A stretch of DNA of 61,693 bases, taken from positions 1-61,693 of the forward strand of contig CAJCID010000117.1 in the NCBI GenBank assembly GCA_903970305.1, in the 5' to 3' direction. A program made the position numbers and the translations under genes. Positions 53,201 through 61,693 of the stretch are shown piece by piece. Within the stretch, counting starts at the first letter, position 1. Each line of letters starts with the position of its first letter. This DNA comes from Rhodospirillales bacterium. GTDB lineage: Bacteria; Pseudomonadota; Gammaproteobacteria; Burkholderiales; Burkholderiaceae_D. The notes under the pieces were generated by a model. It made no database searches, was not told the DNA's origin, and saw nothing but the letters and a program-made list of their open reading frames with translations.

Positions 53201-55357
53201 ATGGTTGACAGCGAAAGCTTCAAGCGGCTTGTCTCGAGCCAGTACTTCTTTAGCGGACTAGAGGCGGGGCTCGGTGTCGCCCTCGTGACGCTTGCCTCCT
53301 ACTACGGCTTGGGCGTCAGCGCGGCCTTGGGAGCGGCCGTCGGAGCGGTGTGCGTGAGCATCGTCGATCTGCCCAATCCACCCCATCACAAGTTCTATCA
53401 GGCCATGGCCGCGGCGATCTTCGGCACGCTCGTGATGCTGGTGATGGAGGCGACAAGCCATGATGTCTGGACCAGAGGGCTTGCGGTCCTGGCGATCAGC
53501 TTCTTTGCGGCCCTCTTGCAAAGCTATGGCCGGCAGGTGCTGGCGCTCAGTTTCTCGCTCTTGTTCGTCATGGTCATCGCCCTGGGCACGCCGGCTGTGG
53601 ACCAGATCGGCATGATCGATCGGATCGCATTCTTCGCTCTGGGTGCTCTGGCCTACGTCGCCTACGGGGTGGTGGCCTCCCGCGTTCTGGCTTTCAAGAC
53701 CAAGCAGCAATCGCTTGGCGAATCGATGTACGTGCTGGCGAACTATCTGCGCGTGCGCTCGCGCTTCTACGAACCCGGTGTGGACCTCGATGCCTGCTAC
53801 CGCGCCCTGATCGAAGAACAGATGGTGGTCGTCGAGAAGCAGCAGGCCACGCGGGAGCTGGTCTTGCGCCGGGTGCGAAGCCCGCGCGATGTGCGCCTCG
53901 TCGCCCTCTTGCTGGGGACCTTGGATGTCTATGAGAAGATCTTTTCGAGCAGTACCGACTACGAGTTGCTCCAGGAACGCTTCGCGGGCTCTGATGCGAT
54001 GCTCTTCCTGCGCGATCTCGCCGAAAAGGGTGCCCAGGATCTCGAGGGTCTGGCGGCCTCGGTCGTCGGGCGCCGCGTGCCCTCGAAGAAGATCAGTTAC
54101 AAGGCTGAGCAGATGGCCTTGGAATATGAGATGGAGCGCCTCGCGCGCGCCGCCTCGGCGAGCGAGGCGGACCAGCATAGCCTGGCGGTGCTTCGGGGCG
54201 TGTGTGACCGCATCTTGCACGGGATCGCCCAGATCCAGGAGCTCCATGCCCTATCGGCCAGCACGCTCACGCGCGCCGAGCTCCTGGGCGGCGAAAGTCT
54301 GCGCCCTTTTGTGACCTCGTTTAGCTTTAGCCCTGGGGTGCTCAGGGCTCAGTTGAAGGCGCGTTCGGCGATCCTGCGCTTTGCCGTGCGTCTGTCGGCC
54401 GCGATGGGATCAGGGTACGTGCTGGCCCACGTGCTGCCCTACGCGACACACAGCTACTGGATTCTATTGACGATCGCCGTGGTGCTGCGCTCGAGTTACA
54501 GTCAGACCCAGCAGCGCCGTAACGACCGGATCATCGGCACAGCCCTGGGCGGCGTCGTCACGGCCCTCTTGCTCCACTTCGGCCCGCCCTCCTGGTTGCA
54601 GATGCTGATCCTGTTCGCGGCGTTGGGCACGGCCCACACCTTTGCCACCATCAAGTACCGCTATACCGCCATTGCGGCTTCGGTGATGGCCTTGCTCCAG
54701 GTTCACCTCATGAATCCGAGCGCAGCCTTCGCACTGCCCGAGCGGATCATCGACACCCTGGTCGGCGCGCTTCTGGCGTTCGCCTTCAGCTTCCTGTGGC
54801 CCAGTTGGGAGCGCCAGAGCATCCCCCAGCAGATCAGAAATCTTCTGGAGGCCAATCTGCGCTATGTCGAGGCGGTCCTGTCGATGACGACGGCGGATCT
54901 CGAATACCGGCTGGCCCGCAAGCGGCTCTTCGACTCCATCGCAACTCTGACGGGCTCCCTGCAGCGCATGCTCAACGAGCCGAAGTCTCACCACCGGGCC
55001 GTGCGCGAACTGCACGAATTCATCACGCTCGACTATCTGCTTGCCGCGCACGCCGCCGCGGCCCACCTGCTGCTCGAGCACCGCGCCGCGGAGATGGATC
55101 CGGGCAAGGCAGCCGCAGAACTCGCGAGCTCAGTCACGGTGATCCGCGAGCACCTCGAACAAGCGCGCCTCGCCTGGGAGCGCAGTCTTCGCGCCGCTCC
55201 CGATCCTCTGGAGATTGCGACACGGATGAGCGCCGCCGAAGCCTATTCGGAGCCACACCTAACCCCCGCGACGCTGCTCAAGCGTCGCCTGCGTCTGATC
55301 GAGGAGACCGCCGCAACGCTCACCGGTCTTTGCGCGCGTATTTCTGCCCAATGGTAG
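53201..55357 (+). CDS. FUSC-family membrane transporter (YccS/YhfK-like)
   Basis: 718 aa. The N-terminal membrane cluster (about 18-165) and a second cluster (about 390-545, including the FUSC-2 segment WILLTIAVVLRSSYSQTQQRRNDRIIGT) flank cytoplasmic helices. This is the YccS/YhfK/AaeB-related inner-membrane family; AaeB exports aromatic acids such as p-hydroxybenzoate. In an aromatic-degrading strain an efflux role is plausible, but no membrane-fusion partner is adjacent. Confidence 0.85.
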   Translation: MVDSESFKRLVSSQYFFSGLEAGLGVALVTLASYYGLGVSAALGAAVGAVCVSIVDLPNPPHHKFYQAMAAAIFGTLVMLVMEATSHDVWTRGLAVLAISFFAALLQSYGRQVLALSFSLLFVMVIALGTPAVDQIGMIDRIAFFALGALAYVAYGVVASRVLAFKTKQQSLGESMYVLANYLRVRSRFYEPGVDLDACYRALIEEQMVVVEKQQATRELVLRRVRSPRDVRLVALLLGTLDVYEKIFSSSTDYELLQERFAGSDAMLFLRDLAEKGAQDLEGLAASVVGRRVPSKKISYKAEQMALEYEMERLARAASASEADQHSLAVLRGVCDRILHGIAQIQELHALSASTLTRAELLGGESLRPFVTSFSFSPGVLRAQLKARSAILRFAVRLSAAMGSGYVLAHVLPYATHSYWILLTIAVVLRSSYSQTQQRRNDRIIGTALGGVVTALLLHFGPPSWLQMLILFAALGTAHTFATIKYRYTAIAASVMALLQVHLMNPSAAFALPERIIDTLVGALLAFAFSFLWPSWERQSIPQQIRNLLEANLRYVEAVLSMTTADLEYRLARKRLFDSIATLTGSLQRMLNEPKSHHRAVRELHEFITLDYLLAAHAAAAHLLLEHRAAEMDPGKAAAELASSVTVIREHLEQARLAWERSLRAAPDPLEIATRMSAAEAYSEPHLTPATLLKRRLRLIEETAATLTGLCARISAQW

Positions 55358-55439
55358 GTGCGTTCTGTTGCGACGCGACATCGAAAGTGCGACGGGACAG
55401 AGATGTCGCCGCCGCGCCGCTGGAGTATCCTCAAGAGCT

Positions 55440-56489
55440 ATGAGTGAGACTGCAGCCAACCGGACGAGCCTTTTTCCGACCACGATTGCGGGCAGCCTGC
55501 CCAAACCCGCCTGGCTTGCCGAGACCCAATCGCTCTGGCCTGCCTGGAAACTCTCGGGCCGGGATCTGGAAGAGGCCAAGAAGGATGCGACGCTCTTGTG
55601 GGTCAAGACACAGGAGGATGCCGGGATCGACATCCTGACCGACGGCGAGCAGTCGCGGCAGCACTTCGTGCACGGCTTTCTCGAATCGGTCGAGGGCATT
55701 GATTTCGAGAACAAAGTGAAGATGGGGATCCGCAACAATCGCTACGAGGCGCTGGTCCCGATCGTCGTCGGGCCGGTGCGCCTGAAGTCGCGCGTGCATG
55801 GCACCGAGGCGGCTCTGGTGCGCGCCCACACTGCGCGCCAGGTGAAGATGACTCTGCCGGGCCCCATGACACTGGTCGACACGATTGCGGATCGGTTCTA
55901 TGGGGACAAACCCACGCTCGCCTTCGCGCTCGCGGACTTGCTGAACAGCGAGGCACGCGCGCTCGAGAAGCAGGGTGTCGACGTGATTCAGTTCGACGAG
56001 CCGGCCTTTAACGTGTACATGGACGAGGTCAGGCAATGGGGCATCCTGGCATTGCATCGTGCCATCGAAGGTCTGCAGTGCAAGACCGCGGTGCACATCT
56101 GCTATGGCTATGGCATCAAGGCGAATATCGATTGGAAGAAGTCCCTTGGCAACCAGTGGCGCCAATACGAGGAGATCTTTCCGGCGCTCGCCGCGAGCCG
56201 ACTCGATCAGGTCTCCATCGAGTGCGCCAATTCTCGGGTGCCGACCAGCCTCTTGGCACACCTCGCGGGCAAGGACGTGCTGCTGGGTGTCATCGACGTG
56301 GCAAGCGAGAAGGTCGAGACCGCCGAAGAAGTCGCCCGGGTGATCGAAGAGGCGCTGAATTTCGTCCCCAAGGAACGGATTTTCGCCTGCACCAACTGCG
56401 GCATGGCACCGATGAAGCGCGAATTGGCGGAAGCGAAACTGGCCGCGATCGCCTCCGGCGCCGCGCTCGCGCGGAGCCGATTGGTTTAG
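55440..56489 (+). CDS. Short cobalamin-independent methionine synthase (core-MetE/MesD type)
   Basis: 349 aa, corresponding only to the C-terminal catalytic half of MetE. TTIAGSLPKPAWL, DGEQSRQHFVHGFLE, PGPMTLVDTIAD, QFDEPAFNVYMDE and the zinc ligands in HICYGYG (His, Cys) and FACTNCGM (Cys) are present. Short enzymes such as MesD take methyl groups from a source other than folate and need the partner MesX (DUF1852); no such gene is seen nearby. The ATG at 55440 opens the conserved region. Confidence 0.86.
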   Translation: MSETAANRTSLFPTTIAGSLPKPAWLAETQSLWPAWKLSGRDLEEAKKDATLLWVKTQEDAGIDILTDGEQSRQHFVHGFLESVEGIDFENKVKMGIRNNRYEALVPIVVGPVRLKSRVHGTEAALVRAHTARQVKMTLPGPMTLVDTIADRFYGDKPTLAFALADLLNSEARALEKQGVDVIQFDEPAFNVYMDEVRQWGILALHRAIEGLQCKTAVHICYGYGIKANIDWKKSLGNQWRQYEEIFPALAASRLDQVSIECANSRVPTSLLAHLAGKDVLLGVIDVASEKVETAEEVARVIEEALNFVPKERIFACTNCGMAPMKRELAEAKLAAIASGAALARSRLV

Positions 56490-56584
56490 TCGGCTCGCCA
56501 AGAGGGCGACGGTGACGCCCGCCGCCTCGCCAGGCTCAGCCACCAAACACGTCGCCGCACCCTGGGCAGTCGCTTCGGGATAAG

Positions 56585-56627
56585 CTTAGGGACCAGTTAG
56601 GGATCAGCTAGGGAGCCGGTTAGGGAC
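56585..56627. repeat. Degenerate 11-bp tandem repeats
   Basis: Four units of ttagggaccag type in a row: ttagggaccag, ttagggatcag, ctagggagccgg and ttagggac. They sit between the methionine synthase gene and the hairpins below. Confidence 0.65.
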
Positions 56628-56652
56628 TACCCGCCACTACCCCCCACTGCAG

Positions 56653-56692
56653 AAATTCCCCTCAGGGCTCGGGTGCGCCAAGAGGGGAATTT
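56653..56692. other. 11-bp inverted repeat
   Basis: AAATTCCCCTC (56653-56663) and GAGGGGAATTT (56682-56692) pair perfectly around an 18-base loop. There is no U run on either side, so it is not a clear terminator. It is downstream of the peptide gene on its strand and may be a 3'-UTR structure or regulator site. Confidence 0.6.
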
Positions 56693-56774
56693 GTCAAACG
56701 CGCTCAACCCACGTTGCGCACAACCCACGCGCGCAAAAAGAGCGACGAAATTGCTCGATACGGTGGTCGGAAAA

Positions 56775-56808
56775 CCCCATAGTCAAATCGCATGGGGCTT
56801 TCTTTCTC
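56775..56808. terminator. Hairpin terminator after the peptide gene (possibly bidirectional)
   Basis: CCCCAT (56775-56780) and ATGGGG (56792-56797) pair around an 11-base loop. On the reverse strand it begins 24 bases after the peptide stop and is followed by UUUU; on the forward strand it is followed by CTTTCTTTCT. Confidence 0.7.
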
Positions 56809-56820
56809 AGGACCTTCGAA

Positions 56821-56964
56821 TCAATAGGGGGTCAGAAGCTGGCCGCCACCAACCAGAACCAGTTCAGCGTCTTCCAGGAACTTCAGCTGGCTCGACTCAA
56901 CTGCAAAGGACTCGGTGGAAGCGTTGTTCTGAGCAGACACGAGCAGTTCGGATTGGGTATTCAT
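56821..56964 (-). CDS. Double-glycine leader peptide precursor (47 aa)
   Basis: ATG at 56964, preceded by AAAGGAAAG at ideal spacing; stop TGA, then a terminator. The C-terminal part reads LKFLEDAELVLVGGGQLLTPY. If cleavage follows Gly41, positions -12 Leu30, -8 Glu34, -7 Leu35, -4 Val38, -2 Gly40 and -1 Gly41 match the double-glycine leader consensus used by C39-peptidase ABC exporters. Processing would release QLLTPY, six residues. The first 26 residues are polar (Asn, Ser, Glu, Gln). It is divergent from the TPR-HD-GYP gene and has lower GC than its neighbours. A pheromone-like signal is the favoured guess; an unmodified-peptide bacteriocin is unlikely at this size. Confidence 0.78.
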   Translation of the reverse strand: MNTQSELLVSAQNNASTESFAVESSQLKFLEDAELVLVGGGQLLTPY

Positions 56965-57011
56965 AGATCTTTCCTTTATCGGTTGTAACGTCAGGGAAAA
57001 CAGGGCATTGG

Positions 57012-57029
57012 CGACAGTTCGAGCTGTCG
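57012..57029. promoter_or_regulatory. Palindrome between the peptide and TPR-HD-GYP genes
   Basis: CGACAGTTCGAGCTGTCG is an 18-bp palindrome with one mismatched pair (positions 7 and 12). It lies midway in the 98-bp divergent promoter region, suited to binding a dimeric regulator of either or both genes. A TTGACA on the reverse strand (57050-57055) is a possible -35 for the peptide gene without a good -10. Confidence 0.55.
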
Positions 57030-57062
57030 AGCCTAGAGTATCTGAAGATTGTCAAAATTGAA

Positions 57063-59045
57063 ATGGATCAAGCTCCCGTTTTTAGCATCGAAGAACTGCT
57101 GACTCGCCCGGTACCCGAGGTCACCCAGATTCTCGAGACGCTGGAGCGCCATCTTTTCGACGTCACGATGGCGGTCTTGCTGAAGCGAGGCGATGCCGCG
57201 GTCGCCAGCTTCTCCTCCGAAAGGAGGAGTCTCGTCGATCATCTATCGATCCTCTGCATGCGCCTCGTCCGTGGCGAAGGCCTTGAGGCACGCATCAAGT
57301 TCCTGATCGACTGCGGCTTTTATTACAACCGGATCGGCCAGAGCCCGATCGGCACGACCCGCGCAGAAGCGGCCCGCGCCTTGGCCTATGAGCACGGCTT
57401 TCCGAACCTCGAGCGCCGCGCCTGCGGCGTCTTGGCGGGCACTCTCATGGACATGGGCGATCTCGAGACGGCCTGCCAGCGCGTCGAGCGCGCGGTCGTG
57501 CTGGCGCGGGAACTGGGCGATCCGTTCCTCGTTGCGAACGCCCTCGGACAGGTCACGCTGCTCTTTAAGGAGATGGGTCTGTACCGCGAGGCCATGGACG
57601 TGGCCGACCGGGTCCTGATGTTCGAATTCCAAACGCCCGAGGGCCAACACGTCATCTTCTCAGCCGCCGGCAACGCGCTCTTTTGTGCACACCGCCTACG
57701 TGATGACGCGCGCGCATTGCGCTACCTGAGCGCAGGATCGGCCTGCCTGGAAAGCCCGGCCATCGATGGCCCCTCACGCGCGACCTTCGACTATTACCGC
57801 GTGCTCCACTTGCTCGACCATAGAGACTTCGAGACCGCCGATCTGCTGATCGAGGCGGCCGTGGCCAAGCTTGGCGCCCTGCAGAATCCCCGCATCGACA
57901 TTCTGATGAAGCTGTGCGCTGCGCTATGCGACTGGGCCAGCCAGAATGCACTGCGCCGCACGCGCTCCAAGCAGGTGCTGCGTGAGCTCTACGCCCAGAC
58001 CAGGCAGACCCGCCTGTACTTCGATGACGTGTTGCGCACACTGTCCCATGTCTGCAGCGTGACCAGCGATGGTGCCGAGATGGAAGAGGGTATCGCCTAT
58101 GCGACCGAACTGGTGGGCTACGTGACGAGCGTCAAGCGGGCCAAGTTCTATCGCCAACTGAATGAACGCGGTGTTGAAACCGCGGGCCTGGCTCTGGGCG
58201 GCGAGCCGGACGTGCTGGCTCCGGCAAAAAGGTGGCTCGGTGGTTCGCCCGCAACCGCCGGCGGGGAACTCGTGGTGGCGGCGGGGCAGATCGAGCGCCA
58301 CGGCGAACTTTCGGCGATCCACGATGATCTGGCCTCCCTTCGGACTTCTGCGTTCAAGGCTTCGGTGCGCACGGTGGCCTACGATGTCGCCGAGAATTGG
58401 GCGCTCGCCGCCGAATTTTTCGACGATGAGACGGGTCAGCACTGTTTTCGCGTGGGCTATCTGGCGCGAATGCTCGCCCGCGAGATCTGCCAGAGTGAAG
58501 AGTTCTGCGAACGGATTGAACTGGCTGCCCGCCTGCACGATATCGGCAAGATCGGCGTGAACGAGCTCATCCTGCTCAAGCCCGGGCCCCTCGACCCGGC
58601 CGAACTTTCGGCCGTGCGAGCCCACGCTGAGGTCGGTGCATTCATGCTCGAGGGCGTGACCGATCCGACCTTGCAGATGGCCGCGGTCATCGCGAAGTAT
58701 CACCACGAGTGGTGGAATGGAACGGGCTATCCGCGCAGGCTCTCCGGACAGGAGATTCCGCTGGAGGCGCGCATCTGCGCCCTGGCCGACGTCTATGACG
58801 CCCTGACGAATCGGCGCGCCTACAAGGCTGCCTGGTCGCATCGCATGGCCATTGAGCAGATGGCCAACGAGACCCCGAGTCACTTTGACCCGAGCCTCAT
58901 CTCGCCATTTCTGAGGGTTCTCGAGAAGTATCTGGCCATCAAGGACTCGTCCGAGTTTCAGCGGGCGCAGCGTTCAGTGATGCATCATAATGGCCTCATC
59001 GATTCGCGCCGGCGACTCGTCGAAGCGGTCAAGGGCTCGGGTTAG
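57063..59045 (+). CDS. TPR-HD-GYP c-di-GMP phosphodiesterase
   Basis: 660 aa, soluble. Residues about 60-370 form TPR-like helical repeats (RRACGVLAGTLMDMGDLETAC; ANALGQVTLLFKEMGLYREAM; VIFSAAGNALFCAHRLRDDAR). The HD-GYP domain (about 430-625) has HDIGK at 492-496, HHE at 547-549, GTGYP at 553-557 and DVYDALTNRRAYK at 576-588, plus His460 and His521, so the metal site and GYP motif look complete. It should hydrolyse c-di-GMP. The TPR domain is the likely ligand or protein sensor. It is divergent from the double-glycine peptide gene. Little ribosome-site sequence is seen before the ATG. Confidence 0.92.
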   Translation: MDQAPVFSIEELLTRPVPEVTQILETLERHLFDVTMAVLLKRGDAAVASFSSERRSLVDHLSILCMRLVRGEGLEARIKFLIDCGFYYNRIGQSPIGTTRAEAARALAYEHGFPNLERRACGVLAGTLMDMGDLETACQRVERAVVLARELGDPFLVANALGQVTLLFKEMGLYREAMDVADRVLMFEFQTPEGQHVIFSAAGNALFCAHRLRDDARALRYLSAGSACLESPAIDGPSRATFDYYRVLHLLDHRDFETADLLIEAAVAKLGALQNPRIDILMKLCAALCDWASQNALRRTRSKQVLRELYAQTRQTRLYFDDVLRTLSHVCSVTSDGAEMEEGIAYATELVGYVTSVKRAKFYRQLNERGVETAGLALGGEPDVLAPAKRWLGGSPATAGGELVVAAGQIERHGELSAIHDDLASLRTSAFKASVRTVAYDVAENWALAAEFFDDETGQHCFRVGYLARMLAREICQSEEFCERIELAARLHDIGKIGVNELILLKPGPLDPAELSAVRAHAEVGAFMLEGVTDPTLQMAAVIAKYHHEWWNGTGYPRRLSGQEIPLEARICALADVYDALTNRRAYKAAWSHRMAIEQMANETPSHFDPSLISPFLRVLEKYLAIKDSSEFQRAQRSVMHHNGLIDSRRRLVEAVKGSG

Positions 59046-59111
59046 ACCCGGCGTCGAGCGGCACTGGAGGCCGCGAGACACGGATCGCATGGTGGCAAGC
59101 CGGGTTTCGGA

Positions 59112-59330
59112 TCAGCTCTTGCGCAGCGGACGGATCGGAACGCTGCCGAGTTCCAGCGGATCGCGCGCCTCGCGTCCGGCGCGCTCGAGTGCTTCTGAGC
59201 AAAGGCGGTCGGTCACGAGGGCCTCGATGAGTCGGTCCGGCAGGGCCGGGTAGCTCGCCGCGAAGGTCATGTTCCCCAGTTGGTCCGCCTCGTACTGGAT
59301 CAGTCCCCAGCGCGTTCGAATCGTCTCCAT
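59112..59330 (-). CDS. Hypothetical protein, 72 aa
   Basis: ATG at 59330 after GGAAAG. The product (METIRTRWGLIQYEADQLG, PALPDRLIEALVTDRL, ELGSVPIRPLRKS) is soluble with no recognised domain. It converges with the TPR-HD-GYP gene, 66 bases away. Confidence 0.6.
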   Translation of the reverse strand: METIRTRWGLIQYEADQLGNMTFAASYPALPDRLIEALVTDRLCSEALERAGREARDPLELGSVPIRPLRKS

Positions 59331-59453
59331 CTGTCTTTCCCGAGGATGTCGCACCGGACGGCGCGAACCACATCATGCTAACGACATCGGCCTGAGGAGT
59401 AGGTGGTCTAGCGTACGGACCGCGGGAACAATCTCTTGCATGCTTCGGAAATC

Positions 59454-60017
59454 ATGCATACCGAACTCACTGAACGCCTCTCCGAAAACCTGGGTGAATG
59501 CGACCGTCTCGAACTGGAGACAGGCATCTACGCCGAGATTGGCGAGATCAACCAGCACCCGCCGAGCCGCGAGGCCCGTCGCGACCTTTACTTCGCAGTC
59601 GAAGACGAAGAATCGCGCAAGCTTCTGATCGGCGCCAGGCGTCGCTACGAGAAGGTGATTCTTGAATCGGTCGAGAGTAATCTGGCCGAGGCCTCGGAGC
59701 GTCTCGTCGAGTCCAGCAAGAAGCCGCAACGCTATCCACTGGGGTCATTCACCGCGATCGTTCTGGTGTTTGCCGGGGTCGGCTATCTGATCGATGGGGT
59801 ACTCGGAGCCGGGCTTGCCGCGCTCCTCGGGACCTTCGTAGGGGGCAGAATCGTCTCGGCCGTCTGGGCCGTGCCGATGGAGGAATCCTTCGAGAATTCC
59901 CTCCAGGATGTTGCGGACCTGAAGAAGCACAAAGCCGTGTATGCCGCCACAGCCGAGTCGTTTGGCCGCGTCGAGGAGCTCAGCGGCAATCGGGATCAGC
60001 TGCTTGATCACGCATAA
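59454..60017 (+). CDS. Membrane protein of unknown function, 187 aa
   Basis: ATG at 59454. A polar helical N-terminal half (ELTERLSENLGECDRLELETGIY; SREARRDLYFAVEDEESRKLLIGARRRYEKV) leads to two close membrane segments (SFTAIVLVFAGVGYLIDGVL, GAGLAALLGTFVGGRIVSAV) and a C-terminal helix. No known family. An upstream TTG would add six residues. Confidence 0.65.
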   Translation: MHTELTERLSENLGECDRLELETGIYAEIGEINQHPPSREARRDLYFAVEDEESRKLLIGARRRYEKVILESVESNLAEASERLVESSKKPQRYPLGSFTAIVLVFAGVGYLIDGVLGAGLAALLGTFVGGRIVSAVWAVPMEESFENSLQDVADLKKHKAVYAATAESFGRVEELSGNRDQLLDHA

Positions 60018-60052
60018 CGCGCTCCTAGGTGATGGTTGCGCGACGGTGCTTC

Positions 60053-60690
60053 TCAAGCCGCGTGCTCCTCTGGATCGACGCTCGATAGGCTAGGCTCGGG
60101 TTCATGCTGGCTCTGCCAGCGCGCAAGCTCTGCCTCGTAAAAGCCTCCAAGTTGTCCCAAAACGAGTGCCACGACCGGGTTGGCTGCTGCCACGCTCGCC
60201 TCTGATCCGTCGCCTGCGACGGTGAGGGCTCCCTCGAAATCACGACTGGCCCATTGTCGGCCCGTCTTGCTCTCTGTCAGGACGGCGCTCAGCTTGAAGC
60301 GCGTCTGGCTCGGGTCACAGTGAAGTCCTGTTCGAGTTCCCTGATCTGCGCGTTGAGTATCACATCACTCACCATGCCACCGGGTGCCTCGGTCACATGC
60401 AGGAGTCCGGTTCCACCTCTTAATTCCGCCACGATGATGGGCTTGAGCATCTCGGCTGGCGTGTCGACCCATTGACGTGTGGCGATGACCTGCGAGTGAG
60501 GTGGAATACGCAAGGTGGCGAGGTCGCCGACCAGAGAGCCCAGTCCGTGGACCGTCCACGAGCCTGAGAGCGCAAGCTCCGAAGGATGAGTCTGAGTGAT
60601 CTCGGCAAGTTCCATGAGTCGGACGTTCGGGAGCAGGTGAAGTCTCGCGACCGGGTCCGGCACGGTCTGTACGCCAACGTACTCACGTTG
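60053..60690 (-). pseudogene. ABC-type transport auxiliary lipoprotein (PqiC/ABC_trans_aux-like), frameshifted
   Basis: On the reverse strand one frame reads PNVRLMELAEITQT, then IPPHSQVIATRQWVDTPAEML and VILNAQIRELEQDF before stopping at 60289. A second frame continues as DPSQTRFKLSAVLTESKTG, QWASRDFEG, SVAAANPVVALVLGQL to a stop at 60053. Joined, they give the ABC_trans_aux order (WADTP-type motif, LxLELExF strand, FVL...RTLLAxRxF strand, AAxxAVxxLL helix). One missing base near 60310, in the ACTGTGACC stretch, would restore the frame. No convincing lipobox start is seen upstream, so the 5' end may also be damaged. Sequencing error is possible. Confidence 0.55.
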
Positions 60691-60893
60691 GGTGCGTCGT
60701 GGTCTCGTTTGAAGTTCGGTGTCGCAACGAACAGAGGGATTGGGATCGCGCGCCGACAATGCAACGGTCTTCTCGTTCGACAGCCATGCCGCACCAGGCA
60801 CAACGACTGGCCGGGCACAGTGGCAAACGAAGGGAAAGCAAGACACACAAGATCCGGTCACCGGGTCTCCGAGTTCAATTGATGGAGAACAGA

Positions 60894-61460
60894 ATGTACA
60901 GATTACGGATTGGGGCGGGCTCACTGGCGCTTGCGACCACCTTGGGGCTGGCAGTGGTCGTCCCCTATGGGATGAGCCAGGCCGCGACAAGCAAACAGGA
61001 ACTCGATGGCGAGTCGAATGCATCGCTGCAGCTTCTCTACAAGACCAACCCTGCAGCATTAGCCCTCTCGAAGAAGGCGAAGGCGATCCTGGTCTTCCCG
61101 AAGATGATCAAGGCGGGTCTCGTCTTCGGCGGGGCTTACGGTGAGGGCGTGCTCCTGGATGGTGCGAGACCGGACGAGTACTTCAACTCGGTCTCGGCGT
61201 CGTGGGGATTGCAGGCGGGTGCGCAAACCTATGGCTATGCGCTTTTCCTCATGAATAGCAAGGCGCTGGGATACCTGCATCGAAGCGAAGGATGGGAACT
61301 CGGAGTGGGGCCTACGGTTGTCGTCGTCGACGAGGGTGTCGCCAAGAATCTCTCGAGCTCGACTTTGAAGAACGATGCCTATGCCGTGATCTTCGATCAG
61401 CAAGGCCTCATGGGTAGTCTCAGCATCGAAGGTACCAAGGTGACACGGATCAAGCCTTAG
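60894..61460 (+). CDS. Exported SYLF/Ysc84-domain protein
   Basis: 188 aa from the ATG at 60894, six bases after GGAG; the ATG at 60882 is less well placed. The signal peptide ends MSQAAT. The SYLF domain reads SKKAKAILVFPKMIKAGLVFGG, ASWGLQAGAQTYGYALFLMNS, EGWELGVGPTVVVVDEG and LMGSLSIEGTKVTRI. It is a paralogue of the lipoprotein at 39043, but without a lipobox, so probably periplasmic. Function unknown; lipid binding is the family trait. Confidence 0.82.
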   Translation: MYRLRIGAGSLALATTLGLAVVVPYGMSQAATSKQELDGESNASLQLLYKTNPAALALSKKAKAILVFPKMIKAGLVFGGAYGEGVLLDGARPDEYFNSVSASWGLQAGAQTYGYALFLMNSKALGYLHRSEGWELGVGPTVVVVDEGVAKNLSSSTLKNDAYAVIFDQQGLMGSLSIEGTKVTRIKP

Positions 61461-61504
61461 GATCCTGGTGCGCGCGGCGAGCTCCGAGCCCATCTCGGAT
61501 GGAC

Positions 61505-61518
61505 CCGCGCAAGCGCGG
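61505..61518. other. GC-rich inverted repeat after the SYLF gene
   Basis: CCGCGC and GCGCGG flank an AA centre, 45 bases after the SYLF stop. There is no U run, so a role in termination is uncertain. Confidence 0.35.
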
Positions 61519-61596
61519 TGTGATGGGTTCGGATCACCGCCAGAACCGGCTCCCGAGCGACTCAGGGATCCGGCGCTTCCCAAGAAACAATATTCC

Positions 61597-61693
61597 CTAG
61601 GCGGAGCACGGCGGTTGCACTCGTGCACAGCAGTAGGTGGCAAAGCCGATCCCGGTCAGCATGGTGCCGACGCCGATCGTCGCGATGACCGCG
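61597..61693 (-). CDS. C-terminal end of an unidentified protein (runs off window)
   Basis: The reverse strand is open from the window edge to a TAG at 61597 and encodes about 31 residues (AVIATIGVGTMLTGIGFATY then CCARVQPPCSA). The Gly/Ile-rich part looks like a membrane helix. Too short to identify; it may not be a real gene. Confidence 0.35.
   Translation of the reverse strand, partial: AVIATIGVGTMLTGIGFATYCCARVQPPCSA

Follow-up and report, generated by a model that had tools for sequence, protein, structure and literature searches.

Double-glycine peptide genes divergent from TPR-HD-GYP regulators suggest a peptide-to-c-di-GMP signalling system in Gram-negative bacteria

The DNA analysed here, called the window throughout, is the 61,693-nucleotide contig CAJCID010000117.1 (C117) of assembly GCA_903970305.1, assigned to a Rhodospirillales bacterium. 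It carries a small gene for a putative exported peptide and, divergent from it, a gene for a regulator that joins a tetratricopeptide repeat (TPR) domain to an HD-GYP domain, the latter a predicted phosphodiesterase of cyclic di-GMP (c-di-GMP). In the original prediction, made from the sequence of the window, the peptide was taken to be sensed by the TPR-HD-GYP protein, and the genomic comparisons described below support this interpretation.

The peptide gene (56821..56964, minus strand) is a 47-codon open reading frame (ORF) with an ATG start, and both its leader and its divergent position are conserved in relatives. The 47-residue product reads MNTQ...LEDAELVLVGGG, followed by QLLTPY. The leader (56842..56964, minus strand) ends in VGGG and, with cleavage assumed after GGG, has L at -12, E at -8, L at -7, V at -4, and G at -2 and -1, in line with position counts over 60 distinct peptides; the ORF and its fit to the double-glycine (GG) consensus at these positions, as first proposed, are confirmed. 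Cleavage at the consensus site would release the hexapeptide QLLTPY (56824..56841, minus strand), and the corresponding tails of relatives are 6-9 residues long and under purifying selection. A Shine-Dalgarno-like AAGGA (56972..56976, minus strand) is found 7 bases 5' of the ATG, where a ribosome site had been noted. The terminator noted with it stands in part: a hairpin follows the stop codon (56769..56802, minus strand; -22.2 kcal/mol over 80 folded bases) and may act as a terminator, but only four T come after the stem, and the scan of 56600-57200 for sigma-70 promoters and terminators made no call. The peptide itself gave nothing meaningful against Pfam and NCBIfam (AztC at 0.013, far below the cut-off).

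The divergent intergenic region (56965..57062, no strand assigned) is 98 bases long, presumably holds both promoters, and is without a sigma-70 consensus match. On its other side, the regulator gene (57063..59045, plus strand) encodes 660 residues, and the product is predicted to be cytosolic (the top 19-residue hydropathy mean is 1.19, with no sign of a membrane helix). Residues 9-357 (57087..58133, plus strand) form a TPR superhelix in the AlphaFold2 model and by fold matches, and represent the predicted peptide-binding domain; the Pfam match to TPR_12 (8.9e-5, 23 bits) is below the cut-off of 30.1. Residues ~448-633 (58404..58961, plus strand) form the HD-GYP domain, matched by HD_5 (3.3e-31) and by the structure 4mcw (Z 19.3, 39% identity; profile match 1.9e-50). 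The motifs HDIGK (residues 492-496; 58536..58550, plus strand) and GYP (residues 555-557; 58725..58733, plus strand) are invariant across 15 aligned regulators, the window protein among them, including the HD pair itself (492-493). The peptide gene thus faces, across 98 bases, a soluble and divergent TPR protein with an HD-GYP site, as originally described. Rfam searches of nine cassette loci and of window positions 55000-61693 returned two tRNAs and no riboswitch.

The window pair is one of at least three such sets in its own genome (4.33 Mb, 329 contigs). Contig C140 carries a TPR-HD-GYP gene 60% identical to the window regulator; divergent from it are two full-length GG peptide genes with the tail YCAADY and another that is truncated at the contig start. 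Contig C171 holds the third TPR-HD-GYP gene, which is more distant (28% identical), together with an HlyD adaptor and an ABC transporter with a C39 peptidase (C39-ABC). The divergent array of C171 stops at the contig end straight after GGGNGIMLFI, with no stop codon reached, and the end of contig C24 holds two copies of the NGIMLFI peptide with their stop codons; the two ends are likely the two sides of one assembly gap in a tandem array. Since contigs break inside peptide arrays, the copy numbers at those ends are lower bounds. Such breaks are seen at the C140 start, the C171 end, the C24 end and the start of G001:C17, as expected for tandem repeats. Near the NGIMLFI array (L060:7442-8127) a frame whose last residues are ...CAMLFI has no intact GG motif and may be a degenerate copy of the precursor. 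The genome therefore does encode an exporter of the C39 type, next to a paralogous regulator with its peptide array, and the location of this exporter outside the window, which the original prediction had left general, can be corrected to C171.

Relatives were collected with the window regulator as query in 195 genomes of its own family; in the order, 399 genomes were searched with TPR-only profiles, of which the exporter-type one matched 15 genomes and the window-type one 5 (own genome counted); a TPR-only profile search of the family f22 matched 22 of 28 genomes. The large searches scored few candidates per genome (for the family regulator search, at most six), and absence in them is therefore weak evidence. 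This holds for the class and phylum searches, in which the only match was the own genome (1/369 and 1/299, respectively). A scan of genome contigs with the window regulator gave three loci, matching in the HD-GYP part only (two Halanaerobium and one uncultured Firmicutes bacterium), and a plasmid search with the TPR half gave no match.

Two main types of regulator can be distinguished. Type A resembles the window protein, is mostly 660-730 residues long, and has no adjoining exporter in the loci seen. Type B is mostly ~610-680 residues long and often has HlyD and C39-ABC genes adjoining. Each locus carries between one and six divergent small GG ORFs, with tails such as YMAADY (four copies), DSTAFNLY (four), QAVMVFL (three), or EAVGTTY (five) with EAVGSTY (one). 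A core set was defined as the regulators with a bit score of at least 430 to the window or the C171 protein; it comprises 30 members, one of them untestable because of a contig end. Their lengths are 612-729 residues in 28 cases; of the other two, one is truncated at a contig end (573 residues) and one has an over-extended ORF start (896 residues).

The association was counted with a scripted scan using a fixed motif, in which tails of 4-14 residues were allowed and a hit had to be divergent and within 2.5 kb. A divergent GG ORF is present beside 26 of the 29 testable core regulators, so that conservation of the small frame and its GG motif next to TPR-HD-GYP relatives, a check suggested with the original prediction, is borne out. 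The three misses are accounted for individually: at L053 the peptide is present and overlapped by an over-extended start of the regulator ORF, while at L059 and L060 the arrays are cut by contig ends, within or straight after the tail. Dinucleotide shuffles of the 1.5-kb upstream regions gave a mean of 0.4/29 and a maximum of 1 in 20 rounds, and none of nine control rows, with an HD-GYP part and without this TPR half, had a GG ORF (these are seven separate HD-GYP loci and two fragments, L123 and L155). Across the loci, 94 GG hits fall in the 517 kb within 3.5 kb of regulators, against 2 in the remaining 359 kb; around other HD-GYP genes (22 loci, 77 kb) there are 2 hits, by eye unlike the family. 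Six loci (L101, L102, L103, L137, L138 and L139) have two tandem TPR-HD-GYP genes with one peptide array, the second gene being the more divergent. Upstream of two distant TPR-HD-GYP relatives (24-30% identical; L041:13893-15890 and L050:4295-6481) no GG peptide was detected, the upstream stretch of L050 comprising only 994 bases to the contig end.

In total 71 GG ORFs were counted, with 45 different tails, and every tail is 6-9 residues long in spite of the wider range allowed. A Shine-Dalgarno-like 4-mer precedes an in-frame start in 62 of the 71. In the 60 distinct peptides, L-12 occurs 43 times, E-8 31, L-7 43, V-4 44 and GGG 60 times, counts which are partly the result of selection by the search pattern, as it demanded GG, G or A before GG, and residue classes at -8, -7 and -4, while -12 was left unconstrained. 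When the copies in each of 15 arrays are compared with one another, the ratio of nonsynonymous to synonymous differences (pN/pS) rises from 0.11 in the tail to 0.47 over the 15 residues that precede the glycines, and to 0.81 over the next 15 towards the N-terminus; copies of unequal tail length were left uncompared, and comparisons within an array are not independent. The low value for the tail next to a drifting N-terminus points to the short tail as the constrained product, and the GG frames are, by this codon-level pattern, most likely translated. The possibility of chance ORFs was rejected by the shuffles, the background counts and the selection on the tail. Copies that differ in the tail within one array were seen at L057, L101 and L138, and tails elsewhere are mostly uniform per locus. 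At L116:7590-8401, six tandem precursors of 38 residues are nearly identical throughout and end in EAVGTTY five times and in EAVGSTY once. One copy at L051 (5487-5630) reads into a longer tail, with 21 residues after GGG, and was not counted, being beyond the length limit.

The length of the tail also bears on the kind of product. A class II microcin or bacteriocin was rejected, as tens of residues would be expected and the tails have 6-9 in all 71 ORFs; no immunity gene was recognised among the seven neighbouring proteins scanned, the small genes being outside that scan, whose three other proteins were two regulators and the exporter. A short core that is cyclised or otherwise modified before export by an enzyme encoded elsewhere, with the modified product as the signal, is a different matter. 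GG leaders are used by modified peptides, and Cys, Trp or Tyr occur in many of the tails, but no obligatory modifiable residue is common to them, and no modification-enzyme family appears in the Pfam matches of the same seven neighbouring proteins, which belong to four cassettes (small genes and the other cassettes were unscanned). We consider such a modification very unlikely, and the tail is discussed below as a linear peptide.

Nineteen loci with weakly similar regulators and no array were re-examined, and 12 of them (L109, L111, L113, L114, L143, L145 and L148-L153, from genomes of the family f22) have a GG peptide that lies downstream of the regulator at a distance of ~1 kb and is in most cases convergent with it. 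The tails of this third branch read [DE]xxPxW or close to it (DSTPNW, DFEPEWP, DGAPVWPY). Between regulator and peptide, 5 of the 12 loci have a gene with a LuxR-like start, and all four of those scanned have a GerE match; the ORF listing shows no such gene at the other seven. No downstream peptide of that kind was found at the remaining 7 of the 19 loci (L106, L108, L117, L118, L120, L146 and L154).

In respect to the exporter, a C39-ABC gene accompanies a regulator of the family at 21 loci, one of them in the own genome; a GG array is present at all of these, in two cases cut by a contig end. Relatives of the C171 transporter with at least 72% identity occur in 8 of the 195 family genomes (G000, G001, G009, G020, G035, G036, G050 and G073), the next best match being 49% identical. 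Among the matches listed, the same eight genomes are those with type A or type B regulators; as the regulator search was limited to few candidates per genome, a missed regulator in other genomes is possible, and as the eight span five genera, the underlying events are fewer than the genomes. In four of them (G009, G035, G050 and G073) no array adjoins the exporter within the sequence retrieved, which means that linkage alone does not account for the co-occurrence. In G035, an HD-GYP gene of 694 residues, similar in its HD-GYP half only, is located 5.4 kb from the unlinked exporter, and no GG ORF was found in that stretch. A C39 exporter (46-100% identity) is present in 13 of 13 regulator-bearing genomes tested. 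As for uptake, a search of the own genome for Opp-type binding proteins, another of the checks first suggested, returned nine PF00496 matches, which are no more than candidates for import.

The tails were compared with the two halves of their regulators by Mantel tests on 34 regulator-tail pairs, leaving out arrays more than 1.2 kb away and regulators shorter than 550 residues; for L053 and L060 the tails were supplied manually, in the case of L060 from the array end on C24. Over all 34 pairs the tail distance correlates with the TPR distance (r 0.56, p 0.0005), a value which shared descent can inflate, since related sequences are not independent. The useful part of the covariation is the contrast between the two domains, and it is clear in type A only. 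In partial tests over all pairs, the tail-TPR correlation given HD-GYP is 0.24 (p 0.0005) and the tail-HD-GYP correlation given TPR is -0.02, and for the 14 pairs of type A the corresponding values are 0.53 (p 0.0005) and -0.15.

This contrast bears on whether the peptides are secreted effectors (in adhesion, matrix, antimicrobial action or interference) whose gene the regulator controls through c-di-GMP, with the TPR domain sensing something else, for example a partner protein. The tail diverges with the TPR domain beyond the divergence of HD-GYP, clearly in type A only, and the copies at one locus mostly share their tail, neither of which favours an effector; 6-9 residues are also far below the known class II microcins and bacteriocins. 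The shared, divergent promoter region would suit such control, and elsewhere, as far as the accessible parts of these papers describe, GG peptides act in biofilm formation (PMC4997328) or as bacteriocins (PMC7595303), and a diguanylate cyclase is under the control of a TPR domain through contact between proteins (PMC12282931). On balance, an effector role is improbable, and sensing of the tail by the TPR domain is the preferred reading.

The window regulator and the C171 regulator (L060) were modelled with AlphaFold2 from alignments of 15 and 24 sequences, respectively. In the window model the 10-residue confidence means are mostly ~90 or more up to residue 330 and lower beyond. For the L060 model, the top four rows from the PDB are the Rap protein of phage Phi3T with pheromones (Z 27.1-27.5 over 314-319 residues), and further matches are RapF-PhrF (25.8), RapJ-CSF (25.3), Rap Phi105 (24.8), NprR (23.7) and AimR (21.9). 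The window model matches Rap Phi3T at Z 24.2, RapJ at 22.7 and NprR at 22.5, and profile comparison gives RapJ at 2e-8, RapF at 1e-5 and NprR at 9e-4. According to these models, the TPR domain of the regulators would be among the closest to the Rap and NprR receptors, tied with MalT, and a shared fold alone is no proof of peptide binding. The likeness to Gram-positive RRNPP receptors that the original prediction had drawn is in this way supported by predicted structure, with the provision that other proteins have this fold too.

From these data we infer the following scheme. The C39-peptidase ABC transporter and its HlyD adaptor, which for the window pair would be supplied from C171, beside the paralogous regulator, would cut the precursor with its triple-glycine leader behind GGG and export it. 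The free tail of 6-9 residues (QLLTPY in the window) would build up outside the cell and re-enter it, an outer-membrane porin and an Opp-type permease being the probable route. In the cytosol it would bind the concave face of the Rap-like TPR superhelix in the divergently encoded regulator and alter, with either sign, the presumed c-di-GMP phosphodiesterase activity of the HD-GYP domain. Different tails with different TPR domains (QLLTPY, YCAADY and NGIMLFI in the own genome) may constitute insulated channels. That short peptides are exported, re-imported and sensed by the TPR domain to set the breakdown of c-di-GMP is the explanation we hold to be probable. With slightly more reserve, the loci may also be taken as a distinct class of Gram-negative quorum sensing, with gene-encoded linear pheromones of 6-9 residues, a dedicated C39-ABC, often tandem precursor arrays, Rap-like TPR-HD-GYP receptors that directly set c-di-GMP breakdown, insulated paralogous channels and a branch with a LuxR-type DNA-binding protein encoded after the receptor. 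The support for signalling comes from comparative genomics and does not amount to proof.

Several points, besides the shared descent of the sequences compared, weigh against the signalling interpretation. The unadjusted tail distance also tracks the HD-GYP distance (r 0.52, p 0.0005), and for the 20 pairs of type B the partial tail-TPR value is just 0.18 (p 0.053), against 0.11 for tail-HD-GYP. A divergent array is found beside just 13 of the 42 weaker regulators, which were kept outside the core count, and 4 of the 13 are second genes that share an array (of the 29 without one, 3 begin at a contig end). C39 exporters are common in their own right (52 of the 195 family genomes at E 1e-150), and the window array is single-copy, with its exporter unlinked. 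The L060 model also matches domain III of MalT (26.9, a tie), APPBP2 (26.2) and LGN (22.0), and the window model matches MalT first (27.4), with APPBP2 at 25.6 and LGN at 19.0; with MalT level or ahead and APPBP2 not far behind, the Rap-like fold is not exclusive to pheromone receptors. By sequence, LGN/Pins and designed consensus TPRs outrank Rap, and HD-GYP entries are likewise ahead. The TPR consensus itself contains Asn. N144 and N185 are present in 23 of 24 exporter-type sequences, with their correspondence to N227 of RapF not established, and the RNPP asparagine cannot be assigned in these regulators. The RapF residue is a conserved TPR asparagine which contacts the peptide backbone, according to the part of PMC3601957 consulted.

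A further point of this kind is that no linked importer was noticed, where no systematic search was made, and that Opp proteins are common. It would fit internal sensing, in which the ligand of the TPR domain is the precursor before cleavage, or the tail of it, in the producing cell, and the precursor level or export capacity is reported to c-di-GMP with no re-import. The predicted cytosolic location of the regulator and the linkage of array, exporter and regulator would fit this as well. Against it, the tail is under stronger selection than the leader, and a length of 6-9 residues suits a pheromone (the TPR covariation was computed for the tail only). Internal sensing is in our view unlikely, and re-import with sensing of the free tail is retained as the explanation.

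In the open literature, searched by title and the start of the abstract among the 7-20 best-ranked papers per search (most subscription papers being outside this scope), no paper was found that joins double-glycine peptides with an HD-GYP or TPR-HD-GYP receptor. To our knowledge, no ligand of any TPR-HD-GYP protein is known. GG-leader peptides and their cognate transporters in Gram-negative bacteria are reportedly treated by Dirix et al. 2004, known to us by title only. The loci described here supply ligand candidates of definite sequence, a candidate exporter and matched receptors, which makes peptide signalling to c-di-GMP in Gram-negative bacteria testable with synthetic hexapeptides, and they are a possible source of orthogonal peptide-receptor pairs. 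A cell-cell signal is tied to an HD-GYP phosphodiesterase in the DSF-RpfC/RpfG system, where the signal is a fatty acid acting through a sensor kinase and a response regulator, with no peptide and no TPR receptor. The small GG-secreted proteins of Synechococcus elongatus, which we take to be those named EbfG, offer another comparison. They affect biofilm, and an adjacent TPR-HD-GYP receptor is not mentioned in the accessible text of PMC4997328; the DSF-RpfC/RpfG system is named in that of PMC13220807. In Vibrio vulnificus RcbA/RcbB, a cytoplasmic TPR domain controls a c-di-GMP enzyme, a GGDEF cyclase regulated by a second TPR protein, with no peptide or exporter mentioned in the sections available (PMC12282931). 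This case also weighs against our interpretation, as it illustrates that TPR domains can control c-di-GMP enzymes through protein binding (PMC12282931, same sections).

Closer in its components is the pneumococcal rtg locus (RtgR/S, RtgAB), which has a TPR-type Rgg regulator, a C39 ABC exporter and several GG peptides together (PMC7018657 and PMC7595303, in the portions available). Its pheromone is a separate SHP-like peptide, RtgS, for which export by PptAB is proposed, and its GG peptides are described there as of unknown function (PMC7018657), whereas here the GG tail itself would be the candidate ligand and the output c-di-GMP. The closest likeness is to RRNPP signalling (Rap-Phr, NprR-NprX, PlcR-PapR, AimR-arbitrium), in which the precursor gene likewise adjoins that of a cytosolic TPR receptor, the tail is short, the fold is Rap-like and paralogous pairs occur in one genome. 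The portion of PMC13220807 available treats RRNPP as Gram-positive, and PMC10075063, in its available part, describes proteobacterial signals as typically small molecules made by enzymes; in these papers, sensing linear peptide pheromones inside the cell is a trait of Gram-positive bacteria. The hosts here are Gram-negative, and multicopy peptide arrays are found in these loci. The export route differs (to judge from the genes, a GG leader and a linked C39-ABC, against Sec or PptAB with exopeptidase maturation in RRNPP), as does the output, with a C-terminal HD-GYP domain in place of HTH/DNA binding or the Rap phosphatase/anti-activator bundle. The receptors, mostly 580-730 residues, also exceed the RRNPP criterion of 250-500 residues (PMC10075063, in the same part). 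Membership in RRNPP was rejected on export route, output domain and receptor length. The loci appear to represent a hitherto undescribed form of cell-to-cell signalling, whose type is known otherwise from Gram-positive bacteria; it works like RRNPP signalling, yet is not a member of it and is close to a class of its own.

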